DNA from: Syntrophomonadaceae bacterium
Lineage (GTDB): Bacteria; Bacillota; Dethiobacteria; DTU022
Direction of reading: 5' to 3'
DNA length: 36,820 nucleotides
NCBI GenBank assembly: GCA_007119965.1
Contig: SKOR01000049.1
Span: forward strand, 1 to 36,820
Below are positions 10,576 through 34,047 of the stretch, one piece after another (the stretch's first letter is position 1; each line of letters starts with the position of its first letter). A model generated the notes under the pieces. That model was not told the origin of the DNA. It ran no database searches and saw only the letters and a list, made by a program, of their open reading frames with translations. The translations under genes were made by a program, and so were the position numbers.

Positions 10576-11520
10576 CTAGGAACGTGGCGAGGTTGCCTTG
10601 TCGAGAAGCTTTTCCAACTGTCTAAAACGGTGGCTCATCCCCGATTTGCTAACCGGTGGATTGACCATTTCGCCCAGCTCTTTGAATGAGGCCTCGGGGA
10701 AGCTTTTCCTGATCAAAGCCGCTTCCCGCAGGGCCGGGGTCAGGTTATCAAGACCAAACAGGCGGTCGACCTGCTCGATCACATCAAGCTGCTGCTGCGC
10801 AGAAGCTACAACTTTTTCAAGATTGGCTGTCTCACAGTTGACCAGCCGGTTAACCTGGTTGCGCATGCTTTTTACTACCCGCATGCTCTCTAACTGCAGC
10901 AGGGTGCTCCCGGCGCCGATGATGCGCAGGTAATCGGCCATGGCTTCGGCATTTTTAAAATAGATAAAAGCGCTGCCATTTCTTATCCGAAGCAGGGGCT
11001 CCAGGTTAAAAGACTGCAGGGTTTTTTGATAGACCTGGGCATCGTCAGCATTGCTGCAGTTAAGTTCGAGATGGTAGCCGGAGCGCCGGGATATGCTGAT
11101 GCTGCCCCCGGCCAAAAAAGCGCCCCGCAAAAAGGCTCTCTTACAGCAGGTTCGTTTCGGCCCTGAAGTAAATAAGCGGGGCAGGCTGAGCTGCCGCCCT
11201 GCTTCTTTGAGATCAAGATAAACCAGCAGGGCATCAACCTGATCATACCCGTAAACGCGAACCAGGAACTGATTTTTATGAAGCCGTTTTTCCTGCTGCC
11301 TGACAATGGTCGGTGAAGCTACACCCGCCATCCTGAGCAGGTTGAAAAGCCTGCGGGCAACAGCATAACCATCAACAGCTATACTTAGAATATGGGTATT
11401 ATGGCGGATGGTGTAATAGCCGTTTTTGAGCAGAAGGGCTTTCAGCTCCCAGGAGCTGCAGCAGGCGAGAGATTCCTCAGATCTGGCCAATTCTTGTTTT
11501 ACCTGACCGGTTAAAGACAA
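10576..11520 (-). CDS. whiA: DNA-binding protein WhiA
   Basis: WhiA is a DNA-binding protein with an N-terminal homing-endonuclease-like fold and a C-terminal helix-turn-helix; in Bacillus it affects division and chromosome segregation, and in Streptomyces sporulation. The 314 residues fit the family, with SLTGQVKQELAR at the start, CCKRAFLRGAFLAGGSIS in the middle, HLELNCSNADDA, and the C-terminal block IRKSFPEASFKELGEMVNPPVSKSGMSHRFRQLEK. Its start is TTG at 11520 with AGGGGGA nine bases upstream. It follows rapZ by 17 bases, with no yvcK in between, and no crh (HPr-like) gene follows. Confidence 0.96.
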   Translation of the reverse strand: MSLTGQVKQELARSEESLACCSSWELKALLLKNGYYTIRHNTHILSIAVDGYAVARRLFNLLRMAGVASPTIVRQQEKRLHKNQFLVRVYGYDQVDALLVYLDLKEAGRQLSLPRLFTSGPKRTCCKRAFLRGAFLAGGSISISRRSGYHLELNCSNADDAQVYQKTLQSFNLEPLLRIRNGSAFIYFKNAEAMADYLRIIGAGSTLLQLESMRVVKSMRNQVNRLVNCETANLEKVVASAQQQLDVIEQVDRLFGLDNLTPALREAALIRKSFPEASFKELGEMVNPPVSKSGMSHRFRQLEKLLDKATSPRS

Positions 11521-11537
11521 TTACAAGGTTCCCCCTG

Positions 11538-12401
11538 TCAGTTTTTATTGATATCCCTGTGCTCAACACTCAGAGTGAAGCGCGAACCCAGGGCTCGGCC
11601 GAGTTCATCGGCAAGGACTACGGAACGATGCTTCCCGCCTGTACAGCCTATGCTGATTATGAGGCTGGTCTTCCCTTCCTTAACATAGAACGGTATTGAA
11701 AACTCCAGCAGATCTTTAACTTTCTTAAAGTAACTGGCGGTTTCCGCCCAGCGCCACAGGTAATCTTTAACCTGTTCTTCTTCGCCGGTTAAAGGCTTCA
11801 GGTGCTCAACATAATGAGGGTTGGGTAAAAACCGCACATCGAATACAAGATCGGAATCGGGAGGCAGGCCGTATTTAAAACCGAAAGACACTATCCGGAT
11901 TTGCATGTTCTTTTCCCGCAGTTCCGGTTCATAGATCTCCACTATCTTTGCTTTTAATTCCCAGGGCTTAAGTGTAGAAGTATCAATTTCACGGCTGGCT
12001 TTGCCCCTGATTTCACTAAGCGCTTCTCGTTCTTTTTTTATCGCTTCCGGCAGGCTCATATTCCCCAGGGGATGGCGGCGGCGGGTTTCTTTGTAACGCC
12101 TGATCAAAACCTGTTCATCTGCCACCAGGTAGAGGATCTCATAGTCTGCGTTTTGCCCTTCCAGCTCCCGAAGAGCTTCAAAAAGATCTTCAAAAAACGC
12201 CGCACCGCGCATATCACATACCAGGGCTACTTTCTTGTTCTCAGACTGAATAAACAGTTCGGTAAATTTAGGGATCAGGGTCGGCGGCATATTATCCACG
12301 CAGTAGTAACCCAGGTCTTCAAAACAGTTCAGGGCATGGCTTTTGCCTGCACCCGACATACCGGTGATTAAGATAATTCGCATGCCATTTGCTTCGCTCA
12401 T
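11538..12401 (-). CDS. rapZ: RapZ/YvcJ-family nucleotide-binding protein
   Basis: RapZ-family proteins bind nucleotides with an N-terminal P-loop domain. In E. coli RapZ is an RNA-binding adaptor for GlmZ decay; the Bacillus homologue YvcJ binds and hydrolyses GTP and affects competence. Visible marks are Walker A GMSGAGKS (residues 14-21), the CVDNMPP segment, RRRHPLG, DTSTLKPWELK, and the C-terminal ligand-binding half with DVRFLPNPHYVEHLKPLTG and SIGCTGGKHRSVVLAD. I place the start at ATG 12401, seven bases after GGAGG, giving 287 residues; a GTG at 12422 would overlap that ribosome site. It forms a tight pair with whiA. Confidence 0.95.
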   Translation of the reverse strand: MSEANGMRIILITGMSGAGKSHALNCFEDLGYYCVDNMPPTLIPKFTELFIQSENKKVALVCDMRGAAFFEDLFEALRELEGQNADYEILYLVADEQVLIRRYKETRRRHPLGNMSLPEAIKKEREALSEIRGKASREIDTSTLKPWELKAKIVEIYEPELREKNMQIRIVSFGFKYGLPPDSDLVFDVRFLPNPHYVEHLKPLTGEEEQVKDYLWRWAETASYFKKVKDLLEFSIPFYVKEGKTSLIISIGCTGGKHRSVVLADELGRALGSRFTLSVEHRDINKN

Positions 12402-12431
12402 CTCGGGTAACCTCCACTTCACCTGACAGGT

Positions 12432-27818: not shown

Positions 27819-28941
27819 CTATTTTTTCTGCGGAATCTTCCCGCGTACTTTCCATCTCAAAAAAGCTTCGATAAAAGGATCGAGCAGGCCGTTCATTACC
27901 GCATCCACCTGGCCGACTTCCACACCCGTGCGGTGGTCTTTGACCAGGGTAAAGGGGTGAAAAGTATACGTCCGGATCTGGCTGCCCCAGGCTATTTCCC
28001 GCTGGTGCCCGCGTTCGGCACTAATTTCTTCGGCCTGTTCCTGCCTGTGCAGCTCGGCAAGCCTGGCCTGCAGGACGCGCATAGCCTGCTCGCGGTTACT
28101 GTGCTGGGAACGGTCGTTCTGGCAGCTGACAACTATCCCGCTGGGCAGGTGGGTTATACGTACTGCAGAGTCGGTTTTATTGACATGCTGGCCTCCCGCG
28201 CCGCTTGCGCGAAACGTATCAATCTTCAGATCGTCGTTGTTAATAACAAAATCTTCCTCTTCCACCTCAGGGATCACGTCAACAGAGGCAAACGAGGTAT
28301 GGCGTCTTTTTGATGTATCGAACGGAGAGATCCTGATCATGCGGTGGACTCCTTTTTCCGCCTGCAGGTACCCGTAAGCAGCATGGCCGCGAACAATAAT
28401 TGTGGCACTTTTGATCCCGGCTTCATCATCGGGGATCAGGTCCACCAGCTCAACCTGGTAACCTTTTTGCTCGCTCCACCGGTTGTACATCCGCAGCAGC
28501 ATCTCAGCCCAATCCTGAGATTCCAGGCCGCCTGCACCCGGGTGCAGTGACATGATCGCATCACAAAAGTCATAGTTGCCGCCTAGAAGCGTCTCAAGCT
28601 CCAACTTGTCAAGCCGTTCCTTTATGCTTTTCAGAAGTGGCTCTATTTCGCTTAAAGCTTCCGCTTCATCGAGCTCGTTTTCGCCAGCCAGTTCTATAAA
28701 AATGCCTGCTTCTTCAATCATTTTTTCCAGTTCCTGCAGGGGCCGGATCTTTTCACGAAGGGCACCCTGTTTTTTCAGGTACTGCTGGGTCCGGTTACTG
28801 TCTTCCCAAAAACGGGGATCAGCCGTTTTTGCCTCAGCTTCCTGCAGCTGTTTCAGCTTCACATCATATTCAAAGTGAAGCCCTCATTTCATCAAATCTT
28901 TGTTGTTCAATGGCCAGTGCTTCCCTGTATTCTTTTAGCAC
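27819..28941 (-). CDS. prfB: Peptide chain release factor 2, made by programmed +1 frameshift
   Basis: RF2 terminates translation at UGA and UAA. A first frame starts at GTG 28941 and reads MLKEYREALAIEQQ...RASL, then meets TGA at 28872-28870. Shifting +1 at CTT continues as EYDVKLKQLQ into the main frame ending at 27819, for about 373 residues, normal for RF2. The main part has the tripeptide discriminator SPF in RISPFDTSKRRHTSF and the catalytic GGQ in RASGAGGQHVNKTDSAV. Without the frameshift the gene would look like a 347-residue fragment starting at GTG 28862. The gene follows secA by 58 bases, the common secA-prfB order in Bacillota. The ribosome site before GTG 28941 is weak (GGTG, five bases upstream). 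Confidence 0.95.
28870..28884 (-). promoter_or_regulatory. prfB autoregulatory +1 frameshift site
   Basis: The minus strand reads AGGGCTTCACTTTGA. An internal Shine-Dalgarno-like AGGG (28884-28881) precedes the slippery CTT codon and the in-frame TGA. When RF2 is scarce the ribosome slips forward one base and makes more RF2. The base after TGA is A rather than the more usual C. Confidence 0.92.
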
Positions 28942-28999: not shown

Positions 29000-31984
29000 C
29001 TACCCGCAGCATTTTTTGTGTTTTTTACCGCTGCCGCAGGGACAGGGTTCGTTGCGGCCCACCTTGTCAACCGTCACCGGCTCAGGTTTTGCCCGTTGAC
29101 CCTGTTCAGCACCGCCCTGTCCTGCCCCGGCAGGGGTGGTGGCAGCGCCCCCTCCGACGGCGGCTATACGCGGCTTCAGGCCTGTCGCTCCGGCTGTCAC
29201 AGTTTCTCGCTGGGGTGCAGCGGTAACCCGCACCTGGTATACCGCGCGCACTACATCAGCCTGGATCTGCTGGATCATGTCTTCAAACATATCAAAGCTT
29301 TGGCGTTTGTACTCTACCAGGGGGTTTCTCTGTGCATAGGCCTGGGTATGAATCTCGTGGCGCAGCTGGTGCATGGCATCAATAAAGTGCATCCAGTGCC
29401 GGTCAACCGTTTTCAGCAGAATGACCCTTTCCAATTCGCGCATTACCTCGGGTTTAATCGTTTCTTCACGCTCCTGGTAGAAAGCGTGGGCTTCTTCAAG
29501 CAGTAAATTACGCACATCATCGACCTCTCGATCAACCAAGTCGGCCAGCGTAATTTTACCTCTGCGTACGCTGACATTTTCTGCTCTTTCCAGTAAAGCG
29601 CGGGCATTTTCATCATCAAGAAAGCCTACTTCTGCTGTATATTCATGAATAAGGCGATCGATGACCTCCTCGATCATGCCCTGGATTGGCTCTTTCATGT
29701 TCTCGCCTTCCAGGACCCGGCGGCGCTGGCCGTAAATTACCTCTCTCTGCTTGTTGAGGACATCGTCATAATCAAGCAGGTTGCGGCGGATCTCAAAGTT
29801 GCGCGATTCCACCTTCTTCTGGGCATTTTCGATGCCCCTGCTGACCAGCGCGTGATCAATAGGCATGTCCTCTTCAATGCCGAAGCGATCCATCAGGGAA
29901 GCAATATTTTCACCACCGAAAAGGCGCATCAGATCGTCTTCAAGCGAAACAAAAAACTGTGAGGAACCCGGGTCGCCCTGACGTCCCGAACGGCCGCGCA
30001 GCTGGTTGTCAATCCTGCGGCTTTCGTGCCGTTCAGTCCCCAGTACATGCAGTCCGCCTGAAGCCAGTACTTCTTCACGCTGCTTTTTGGTATCTGCAAC
30101 CGCCTGATCGATCAACTCGGAACGGCGTTTATCCCAGCGCTCCCTGTCCTCTTCAGGAAGCTCTGCTTCCCGGACACCAAACTCTTTTTCCAGCTCCTCC
30201 TTAATCAGGTACTCGGGGTTGCCGCCAAGGATAATGTCTGTTCCGCGCCCCGCCATGTTGGTCGAGATTGTAACGGCCCCTTTACTGCCGGCCTGGGCGA
30301 TAATATAGGCTTCACGGACATGGTTGACTGCATTTAACACTTCATGGGGAATCTCCTGCCTTTTCAGCACCTTGCTCAGCATTTCCGATTTCTCAACGGA
30401 AACAGTACCGACCAGGACAGGCTGCCCTCTCTGCTGACAGTCAATTATTTCTTCCACAGCCGCTTTAAACTTGGCCCGTTCTGTCTTATAGATCAGGTCC
30501 GGCATTTCCTCACGAATCAGAGGCTTATTGGTGGGGATGGCGATAACATCCATGCCGTAAATACTGCGGAACTCGTCTTCCTCGGTCAGGGCCGTTCCGG
30601 TCATCCCGGAAATTTTATCATACATCCGGAAATAATTCTGGAAAGTTATTGAAGCAACCGTGCGGCTGCCGGCCTGGACCTCAACCCCTTCTTTAGCTTC
30701 AATCGCCTGGTGCAGGCCATCAGAATAGCGGCGGCCGGACATCAGGCGCCCTGTAAATTCATCAACTATAACCACCTTGCCATCCTGGACCACATAATCG
30801 ACATCCCTCTCGAAAAGGGAGTAAGCCTTGATCAACTGGTCAAAGTAGTGGCGGTGTTCACTGGCGGAATCAGCTTCCTGCTCCTCGAGTTCATCACCAT
30901 CATCGGCACTGTCTTTATCCAACCTTAAAAGCTGTAAAAGTTGGGGGTTGATCCGTTCAAGCTCGCGGTAGCCTTTATCCTTAATGTCAGCGAGCCTGGT
31001 AGCTTCATCTATGATGTAATAGAGTTCTTCATCTAGTTGGTTCAGGCGCTTTTCTGTCATTAATTGCTGCTTGGTCCTCTCGACCAGCTTTTCCACGCCG
31101 GGTTCTTTGATAATCTTGAGCAGCTTTTTATGTTTGGGTGCGCCGCGGCGGACCAGCAGCAGTTTTTCCCCGGCTTCTTCACGCTGACCAGAGTCAAGAT
31201 CTTCACGTGCGCTGTTAAGCAGCTCATTAATCAGTTTACCCTGCTTGCGGATCAGGTGCTCAACTTCATTTTTCCAGCGGCCGTATTCTTCCTTCGTCTC
31301 GACCCTGCTGCTGATAATCAGCGGCGTACGCGCTTCATCGATTAAAATACTGTCCACCTCATCGATAATTGCGTAATGCTTTTCCCGCTGGACCAGATCA
31401 GACTTATAGATAACCATGTTATCGCGCAGATAATCGAAACCAAGCTCATTGTTCGTGGCATAAGTAATATCCCGGCCGTATTCTTCCCGGCGCTGCGCCG
31501 GTTCAAGCCCCTGGACAACCAGGCCGACATTCAGGCCTAAAAACTCGAAAACCGGGCCCATCCAATCGCGGTCACGGCGGGCCAGGTAATCGTTTACGGT
31601 TACTATGTGCACGCCTTTACCGGCCAGGGCATTGAGGTAGGCTGGCATAGTGGCCACCAGGGTTTTGCCTTCCCCTGTTTTCATCTCTGCAATCCTCCCC
31701 TGGTGCAGGACAAGAGCCCCCATAACCTGCACATCGAAAGGTCGCATCCCGGTTTGCCGCAGGGCGGCTTCCCTGGCCAGGGCAAATGCCTCGGGCAGAA
31801 TGTCATCTAAGCTTTCGCCCTGCTCCAGACGCTCTTTAAACCGTTCGGTCTGAGCCGGAAACTGCCGGTCGGGAAGTTCGGCCGCCCAGGATTCCAGACT
31901 GTTCACCCTGTCAACTATATTTTGCAAACGGCGCACTTCTTTTTCATTTTGATCGCCGAATAGCTTTTGGATAAATGAGACCAT
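29000..31984 (-). CDS. secA: Protein translocase ATPase SecA, with internal insertion
   Basis: SecA drives preproteins through SecYEG. From ATG 31984 (AAAGGAG seven bases upstream) it has 994 residues, longer than the 840-900 usual in Bacillota. Visible parts are Walker [12 protein letters not shown] near 101-111, NDYLARRD, the DEAD-type [16 protein letters not shown] near 206-221, the preprotein cross-linking domain, [17 protein letters not shown] and [14 protein letters not shown] of the second ATPase fold, and a C-terminal zinc motif [19 protein letters not shown]. About 85-90 extra residues occur within the cross-linking domain (about 235-345, with [15 protein letters not shown] and [13 protein letters not shown]), followed by an acidic stretch ([12 protein letters not shown]). 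An upstream in-frame ATG at 32104 lacks a ribosome site and lies in a structured leader, so I reject it. Confidence 0.97.
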
Positions 31985-32186
31985 CGAATAGCTCCTTTCT
32001 TCCTCTTGCAGCCACAAATCCGGATTACAATCAAGCACCAGTAAAACAAATGTCCCGCCGCTGTATTGCCGGTTTTCAGCTTTCCCGCCCGCAGACCGTG
32101 GCATTTGGACAATAGCCGCCGGGTCCTGTGTTTACCGCTCACTGGTAACGGAGAAAACCGGCAGAAAAGCAGTACGCCTGATTAAC
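31985..32186 (-). promoter_or_regulatory. Structured leader of secA mRNA
   Basis: Between the putative promoter and the secA start, TGCCGGTTTTC (32163-32153) pairs perfectly with GAAAACCGGCA (32077-32067), an 11-bp closing stem. It encloses at least two further hairpins, TTACC/GGTAA (32148-32132) and GGAC/GTCC (32126-32107). This multi-branch arrangement looks like a cis-regulatory RNA, but I recognise no known riboswitch class. No T-tract follows the stem. Confidence 0.5.
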
Positions 32187-32272: not shown

Positions 32273-33406
32273 TTAAAAGCAGGATCTTGTTTTCGGGCTG
32301 CCGGGATCAAGTTCACTGCACAGCGCCCACAGGCTTCCCGATACCAGGGAGTGGCCGCCCAGGACAACCGGTATGGGGCAGCTTACCGCCGCCTTTGTAA
32401 AGTTTCTCAGCCAGGGATCTTTTATTTCTTCCCATAGTCCAAGATCGGACAAAAAGCGGTCCCGATCTGAAGGGTCAAGCCTGTAGTGGTGGATTAAGAC
32501 CCGGCTGTCGATAAAAGCGCAGCGTGCTACCCTGGCCAGGTAGCTGAAAAAATTGTCAAGTCCGGCATGGTCAATAAGCAGGGCGAGCAGGGAAACAACT
32601 TCGTTTGCTTCAATACGGCCGAGGGATTTCATACCGCGCTCTTCAGAAAAAACACGCAGACGCAGTTTAAGGATAGCGTTAAGCCGCCCGATAATAGGCG
32701 CCCCAACCCGGCCAATAAGGGCAACATCTTCGTATTCATCGCTCAGAATCGCCTTGGCTTTTTCCAGGGTACTGTAATCCAGCTCCAGGCTCTCGATCGC
32801 TTCCCTCGTCCGCGGTCCGGCAAAGGGGCCTGCCCCTAAAACAAGCAGGTCGCTGGGGGTGTCAATGTCAAATAAAAGGCCGAGGGAATGCGGCATCAAC
32901 TCCATTTCAAGGCGGAGTTGATCGCGTAAAGTCAGGGCCAGGCTGTTATCCATGGCCGGCAGCTCTACGCTGTCCAGATCCGGGGGCACTGTAAAGGCAG
33001 CGATATCGACAGACTGCGTATTGTTGGTATAAACAAATTTTTCCCGGTTGAGCAGCTTTTGGCAGATCATATCCAGCTCTTCAATTGTGATCAGGGGGGA
33101 GCCTGCTCCGTTAAGGCAGAAAACCCTTGTCAGCCCGTGGTCACGGACAGCAGCCTGCAGAGCTTTTCCATAGTGGAATTTTTCAGGCGCAATGGAGTTA
33201 AGATAGACCTTTGCCCCGAGGCGGGAAGCAGGCTCAGTCAGTTCCGGACGGTTGGTAAACAAGTATATCTGATCTAATGCAGGCACATGGCCCATTTTTT
33301 CAAGATTATCCAAAAGGGCAGCCTGGCGAACCCGGATCATGGCCTCTTCCACGCTGCTTTTTGGTTGCGAACCTTCAAAGATTACGGCGCTTACCCCATC
33401 ATTCAT
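32273..33406 (-). CDS. Uncharacterised protein with nucleotidyltransferase-like N-terminal half
   Basis: A 377-residue protein I cannot assign. The first 190 residues resemble MobA/CofC-type nucleotidyltransferases in layout: a start DGVSAVIFEGS where the usual LAGG-type loop is altered, LDQIYLFTNRPEL, GKALQAAVRDHGLTRVFCLNGAGSPLIT where active members carry an aspartate (GGD-like), and LLFDIDTPSDLLVLG. The second half (about 200-377) is mostly helical with conserved-looking patches: LIGRVGAPI, RVFSEERGMKS, FIDSRVLIHHY, DPWLRNFTKAA and IPVVLGGHSLVSG. There is no signal peptide or membrane segment, so it is probably cytosolic. ATG 33406 follows AGAGGT. It stands between hpf and secA, 53 bases after hpf. 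Substrate and activity are unknown, and the catalytic loop may be degenerate. Confidence 0.85.
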   Translation of the reverse strand: MNDGVSAVIFEGSQPKSSVEEAMIRVRQAALLDNLEKMGHVPALDQIYLFTNRPELTEPASRLGAKVYLNSIAPEKFHYGKALQAAVRDHGLTRVFCLNGAGSPLITIEELDMICQKLLNREKFVYTNNTQSVDIAAFTVPPDLDSVELPAMDNSLALTLRDQLRLEMELMPHSLGLLFDIDTPSDLLVLGAGPFAGPRTREAIESLELDYSTLEKAKAILSDEYEDVALIGRVGAPIIGRLNAILKLRLRVFSEERGMKSLGRIEANEVVSLLALLIDHAGLDNFFSYLARVARCAFIDSRVLIHHYRLDPSDRDRFLSDLGLWEEIKDPWLRNFTKAAVSCPIPVVLGGHSLVSGSLWALCSELDPGSPKTRSCF

Positions 33407-33459: not shown

Positions 33460-33999
33460 TTATTCCGGCTCAATAAGCCCGTAATTTCCATCTTTGCGCT
33501 TGTAAACAACACTGACGCCATCTGTCTCATCATGAGTGAAGACGAAAAAACTGTGCCCCAGCAGATCCATCTGGAGTATAGCTTCCTCGACACTCATCGG
33601 CTTAAGCGTAAACCGCTTGGTTCTGACAACCTGCGGGGAATCGTCTTCTAAACGCTCTTCAGCTTCTTTCGCCGCATGCTTCTCACTAATCGTACGCATT
33701 CCCCTATGACGGAGCGATTTGTTCATGCGGGTCTTATATTTTTTAACCTGGCGCTCCAGTTTATCGACCACCATGTCTATCGAAGCGTACATGTCGCCTG
33801 TTGATTCTTCGCCGCGCAAAATCAAACCATTCAGGTTCAGGGTTACTTCAACAATATGTTCTTCCCGGATTACACTGAGGACAACCTGGACATCTGTCGC
33901 CTGGTCAAAATGCTTATCGAGTTTGCCGAGCTTCTTCTGGGCATAATCAACCAGGGCCGGAGTGGCTTCAATATTTTTACCGCGCACGTTTATATTCAT
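33460..33999 (-). CDS. hpf: Ribosome hibernation promoting factor, long form
   Basis: HPF binds the decoding site of idle ribosomes and pairs them into 100S dimers in stationary phase. From ATG 33999 (AGGAGGT seven bases upstream) the protein has 179 residues: the N-terminal ribosome-binding domain (about 1-100, MNINVRGKNIEATPALVDYA), a linker, and the C-terminal dimerisation domain (about 120-179, VVRTKRFTLKPMSVEEAILQM and GHSFFVFTHDETDGVSVVY, each shown only in part as motif landmarks). The C-terminal domain marks the long form that alone forms 100S dimers in Bacillota. A GTG at 34005 is less likely. A sigma-H-like promoter lies upstream. Confidence 0.96.
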   Translation of the reverse strand: MNINVRGKNIEATPALVDYAQKKLGKLDKHFDQATDVQVVLSVIREEHIVEVTLNLNGLILRGEESTGDMYASIDMVVDKLERQVKKYKTRMNKSLRHRGMRTISEKHAAKEAEERLEDDSPQVVRTKRFTLKPMSVEEAILQMDLLGHSFFVFTHDETDGVSVVYKRKDGNYGLIEPE

Positions 34000-34047
34000 G
34001 TTCACTACCTCCTGCAGTTTAATATAGAAACAATGATACTATAAATA

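Follow-up and report, generated by a model that had tools for sequence, protein, structure and literature searches.

What does the gene between hpf and secA in this Syntrophomonadaceae genome encode, and what might its product do beside a gene for ribosome shutdown? The locus was analysed within a 36,820-nucleotide stretch of contig SKOR01000049.1, here called the window, where a first-pass annotation from the DNA letters had described an uncharacterised two-domain protein encoded between hpf and secA. This position was confirmed, all three genes sharing one strand:

29000–32104, minus strand: secA, the downstream gene in the locus of the studied gene
32273–33406, minus strand: the studied gene, 377 codons from an ATG start with the stop codon inside the coordinates, encoding the two-domain protein
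33460–34005, minus strand: hpf, long form (Pfam S30AE and S30AE_C), the conserved upstream partner gene

The order of transcription is hpf, studied gene, secA, with a gap of 53 bp between hpf and the studied gene. The sequence GGAAGAGG stands 5' of the ATG of the studied gene at a normal distance, and no terminator-like site was found among the three genes on their strand. The gene occurs once in the window genome. Searches of Pfam, NCBIfam and PADLOC assigned its product to no named family (the lack of a PADLOC match also led to rejection of a defence system), and no paper on the gene or on the hpf–secA neighbourhood was found among open-licence papers.

A scan for relatives using one genome per species gave 149 places encoding relatives of the protein, 80 of which were kept, from Bacillota together with MAGs of Syntrophomonadaceae, Dethiobacter and Fermentithermobacillaceae. 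More than 100 homologues were found, the lowest at about 26% identity to the window protein, and the family alignment comprised 101 non-redundant members sharing 26–84% identity with it. The homologues thus extend far beyond one genus, and the possibility of a protein confined to a single genus, raised in the first-pass annotation, does not hold. Across the phylum, 58 of the 299 sampled genomes (about a fifth) had the gene, and at class level 54 of 60; in a whole-genome survey carriers were single-copy save for split fragments at contig ends, and viral contigs held no relative. Two MAGs titled Desulfovibrio (L024 and L044) carry the gene in a Bacillota-like hpf–secA locus and are probably mislabelled. 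The gene is real, and its product represents a widely conserved, unnamed two-domain family: a single-copy gene inherited with its locus and nearly class-wide, yet outside every named family in Pfam, NCBIfam and PADLOC.

The best reading of the product is a cytoplasmic protein that originated from the joining of a CofC-type nucleotidyltransferase domain with a Rossmann-like one, divided as follows:

32795–33406, minus strand: N-terminal domain, residues 1–204, with a predicted CofC/FbiD-like nucleotidyltransferase (GT-A type) fold (AlphaFold2, Foldseek/VIA-align, hhalign, conservation); key residues E11 G12, H78, N128 N129, S132, D134, D153 N154, D180 and D182
32303–32794, minus strand: C-terminal domain, residues 205–368, predicted as Rossmann-like alpha/beta from AlphaFold2 of the domain alone, a family without a name; motifs GR233, SEERGMK 254–260, D300xR302 and GGHSL 350–354

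For the full protein, AlphaFold2 with the family alignment gave a pLDDT of 95 and a pTM of 0.92. Residues 1–204 of this model matched FbiD (6bwg) in Foldseek at an E value of 8e-9. In VIA-align they reached Z 16.3 with 7p97, the 3-phospho-D-glycerate guanylyltransferase (180 residues, rmsd 2.9), and Z 15.8 with FbiD (190 residues, rmsd 2.9). The family profile ranked FbiD first among PDB sequences (E 0.006) and, compared by hhalign with aligned FbiD and six actinobacterial CofC sequences, scored a probability of 75% (E 2.4e-5), with the control alignments CbiC and CofD scoring <1%. The window protein had no match to Pfam or NCBIfam up to an E value of 10, the CofC profiles PF01983 and TIGR03552 included; a PF01983 search of the window genome did not recover it, and TIGR03552 gave weak matches only, in 37 of the 101 members (best E 4e-4). 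As judged from family profiles and the predicted fold, the N-terminal domain is homologous to CofC/FbiD, in agreement with the MobA/CofC-type fold that the first-pass annotation had proposed for this half.

In FbiD, D116, D188 and D190 hold two Mg2+ ions and the phosphate of PEP, the carboxylate of which is bound by S166 and by the T148 and G163 backbone (PMC6450877); K17 and L92 make further contacts to PEP (PMC8764529). Profile alignment and hhalign both placed D188 and D190 on D180 and D182 of the studied protein. The FbiD metal set is incomplete, since D116 aligns with A101 in a GGA-x-x-PL motif, a position occupied by Ala or Gly in 100 of the 101 members. T148 aligns with D134 in the PDB profile alignment, and D165–S166 was placed on D153–N154 by hhalign, where the PDB profile alignment has a gap. 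The loop lysine equivalent to K17 is missing and E11–G12 (EGG) stands instead, as read from the register of strand 1, outside the hhalign coverage. The family consensus of this nucleotide loop is IFEGG (more fully IFEGG-x-P-x-S-x-VE), so that EGS in the window protein is a variant.

These alignments to FbiD confirm that the canonical loop and the first metal aspartate are both gone, as had been noted from the sequence; the motifs then quoted (IFEGSQPKSS, NGAGSPL, DIDTPSDL, SEERGM, DPWLRNFTKAA and VVLGGHSLVSG) are present and are features of the family, not of chance. The description of the site as degenerate, in the sense of decay, does not stand, since the positions that differ from CofC are fixed in their own right across the family: the FbiD-aligned residues D180, D182, N154 and D134 are invariant in the 101 sequences, with residue 101 alone being either Ala or Gly, and the new residues H78, N128, S132, D134, D153 and N154 are almost or fully invariant. 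On this pattern of substitution, the CofC active site appears rebuilt, not eroded.

One alternative would keep the protein as an ordinary nucleotidyltransferase, an NDP-acid or NDP-sugar synthase with another metal ligand, whose C-terminal domain acts as the transferase using the activated product, in a CofC plus CofD-like arrangement. Its nearest folds, which are 3-phospho-D-glycerate and 2-phospho-lactate/PEP guanylyltransferases, and the retained D180-x-D182 pair are in line with this, but the CofC loop lysine is replaced as described, E11 and R27 themselves are gone from the f9 clade, TIGR01819 (CofD) scored over its cut-off in none of 18 carrier genomes, and the C-terminal domain showed no profile similarity to CofD/YvcK (hhalign probability 0.2%), on which grounds a CofD-like transferase was also rejected as an identity for this domain. 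We regard this alternative as unlikely. F420 biosynthesis was likewise rejected on the TIGR01819 result, and PF01933 (the CofD/YvcK family) had no match at all in the window genome.

The C-terminal domain modelled alone was alpha/beta with a pLDDT of 93; the helical domain that the first-pass annotation had expected is thus not what is predicted. Its strands cover residues 226–232, 248–254, 296–300 and 347–350 (protein numbering), each followed by invariant charged residues or motifs. In Rossmann-like enzymes, active-site residues likewise follow strands. The earlier impression that this half belongs to no known family was upheld: comparison with Pfam and PDB sequences gave no convincing match, the PDB profile search returned chance matches only (a spidroin at E 0.4), and the fold search in the PDB found nothing at E <0.001. 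The best VIA-align Z of 5.6 falls inside the noise range (the noise level of the tool being 8), and the list of transcarbamoylases, HydF, CbiC and dehydroquinase, all at Z 4.6–5.6, reflects a common arrangement; the absence of a given family from it proves nothing. A link to tetrapyrroles or B12, considered from weak fold matches to CoaR and CbiC, was rejected, as it had no profile support and no co-occurrence, and carriers without CbiC exist.

Across the 101 members, the residues that never vary are G12, G80, N128, S132, D134, D153, N154, D180 and D182 in the N-terminal half and G232, R233, R251, E255, E256, R257, D300, R302, R317, D321, G350 and H352 in the second half, where the motifs first picked out from the sequence are conserved family-wide; E11, R27, T51, H78, N129, R249, S254, R264, H307 and S320 are altered in one to three members. 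The C-terminal domain is conserved better than the N-terminal domain (mean distance 0.49 versus 0.58). In the most divergent clade (L122 and L123), E11 and R27 are changed, as is G12 in L123, all three being parts of the old nucleotide loop, whereas N128, S132, D134, D153, N154, D180 and D182 are kept, as are the C-domain motifs with few exceptions. This suggests that the acceptor/metal residues and the C-terminal domain, not the old nucleotide loop, form the functional core, perhaps as a single composite site.

Taken with the confident model, the fixed acid-site positions and the charged residues after the C-domain strands, this retention points to a metal-dependent two-domain enzyme whose site is rebuilt or composite, a reading that we favour modestly over a ligand sensor and hold tentatively, at somewhat less than an even chance. 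In such an enzyme, Mg2+ would be held in the acceptor half by D180 and D182, with probable help from D134 or D153. An arginine-rich site in the C-terminal domain (R233, R249, R251, E255, E256, R257, D300, R302 and H352) would bind a phosphorylated substrate or turn it over, and would be a further active site in its own right or else supply the opposite wall of a putative composite interdomain site. Made together with Hpf, as the gene order would predict, the protein would probably be active when growth slows. Against catalysis, the loop that grips the NTP phosphates has no lysine and the first metal aspartate is missing, as in pseudo-enzymes; invariant residues are also compatible with sensing or with contacts to another protein, and no partner enzyme indicates a pathway.

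The gene neighbourhood was then compared across loci, with thresholds of at least 1.5 kb upstream for the hpf count (n = 109) and at least 7 kb for the secA count (n = 82). In 99 loci the next gene upstream, in the same orientation, was hpf, usually 3–130 bp away, an association that adds to the case for the enzyme, and secA was downstream in 79; two members (L134 and L111) were away from both. Relatives of the window have nothing inserted between the studied gene and secA, and many other loci carry there a 215-aa protein, a MASE9-HD protein and DUF5317. The 215-aa protein (L062:9247–9885, similar in 45 loci) is conserved, has no Pfam match and contains the motifs EIHVLxxxxRxPKQIVRDIE and IDHKKISI. 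Dethiobacter relatives (L042:9154–12555 and 12–20 related loci) carry hisD, hisB and a HAD-family protein in this interval. One family of eight loci (L096:131–1489 and L142:1787–3115 among them) has a B12-binding radical SAM gene between hpf and the studied gene, overlapping or abutting the latter.

Genomes without the studied gene often retain hpf and secA, side by side or separated by the 215-aa/HD/DUF5317 set, and no hidden divergent copy was found in the 14 hpf–secA gaps of non-carriers that were read. The old set of hpf, 215-aa protein, MASE9-HD, DUF5317 and secA persists without the studied gene in L187, L190–L195 and L199. The hpf–secA order is older than, and independent of, the studied gene. 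Since non-carriers keep this order, the gene is a non-obligatory component of an old locus, with its place right behind hpf. Of the two neighbours, hpf shows conserved linkage, and the linkage to secA belongs to the older order. Distances for the studied protein tracked those for Hpf (correlation 0.80) and SecA (0.74) much as Hpf and SecA tracked each other (0.77), as expected if the gene and the locus are passed on together by vertical descent. Given this and the older gene order, the linkage to hpf is suggestive of shared function but no proof of it; moreover, Hpf was found in 60 of 61 genomes sampled and the studied gene in about a fifth, so the latter is no universal component of hibernation.

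The same correlations, and the coming and going of other genes between the studied gene and secA, would suit an unrelated housekeeping enzyme carried as a passenger of the locus, whose neighbours say nothing of its function. This we consider improbable, as the gene stays directly after hpf despite insertions around it, with few exceptions in the 109 loci.

Members of three families (L076, L102 and L111) carry a C-terminal TrkA_C (RCK_C) domain, with E values of 3e-10, 6e-6 and 3e-4, only the first exceeding the Pfam cut-off. TrkA_C domains elsewhere bind small ligands, c-di-AMP among them, and by analogy the fusions hint that the studied protein can be under ligand control. The L111 member (L111:7982–9361) is not next to hpf; in its vicinity are genes that, from reading their sequence, we take to be ppk- and ppx-like (polyphosphate metabolism).

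Such fusions in three lineages, the hpf neighbour and the loss of the canonical loop and first metal aspartate are what would be expected of a non-catalytic sensor, in which binding of a nucleotide or metabolite by the nucleotidyltransferase-like domain is signalled through the C-terminal domain to Hpf or the ribosome, tuning hibernation. The pseudo-enzyme or sensor of the first-pass annotation is thus possible, though less likely than not, and ranks slightly behind a rebuilt enzyme: the position need not mean function with Hpf when the older order exists without the gene, L134 and L111 lie elsewhere, the near-universality of Hpf argues against a general hibernation role, and the fixed Asp/Glu/Arg/His pattern in two sites looks catalytic.

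Two further features of the window were recorded. The gene prfB contains its usual programmed +1 frameshift site (28862–28890, minus strand), already known, at which the upstream frame ends CTT TGA and the main frame continues L-E-Y-D-V-K past the site. At 10576–12422 (minus strand) lie adjacent genes that, by their sequences, we take to be rapZ and whiA, without yvcK/glmR between them. The usual order in Bacillota is rapZ–yvcK–whiA, and no CofD/YvcK-family match was found in the window genome or in four other carrier genomes.

The interest of the protein lies in its two strictly conserved site-like regions and in a gene adjoining one for ribosome shutdown. A ligand or activity, once found, would define a new enzyme class in the nucleotidyltransferase superfamily or a new regulator of ribosome hibernation. 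The fullest version of this idea is speculative and, as a whole, has a low probability in our view: a rebuilt nucleotidyltransferase domain and a Rossmann-like domain of a new family would build a single composite site, giving a new class of enzyme or sensor that synthesises, degrades or detects a stress nucleotide or phospho-metabolite and that is tied, by way of the hpf operon, to the hibernation of ribosomes across many deep-branching Bacillota.

Among known systems, proteins with a TrkA_C domain differ from the window protein, which itself has no such extension. The CbiC precorrin isomerase and the tetrapyrrole-binding domain of CoaR may have a loosely similar Rossmann-like arrangement across the whole C-terminal domain; CbiC reached a VIA Z of 5.2, tied with transcarbamoylases and HydF and below the noise level, with an hhalign probability of 0.1%, i.e. 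no profile similarity, and CoaR a Foldseek probability of 0.75. With MobA/MocA/CobY-type nucleotidyltransferases (PF12804, TIGR00454) the family shares the superfamily fold, with weak profile matches in a few members, but it has neither their LAGG-x-S-x-RMG-x-x-K nucleotide loop nor their D-x-P metal motif, in place of which the consensus is GGA-x-x-PL. The closest relationship is to CofC/FbiD (PDB 6bwg, 6bwh and 7p97), from which the studied protein differs in that the window genome has no F420 pathway and in an extra C-terminal domain of 160 residues, and with which it shares the N-domain fold (VIA Z about 16 over 180–190 residues), the LLDNL helix, the Asp pair in FD-x-DTP-x-DL and equivalent positions of the acid-binding site.
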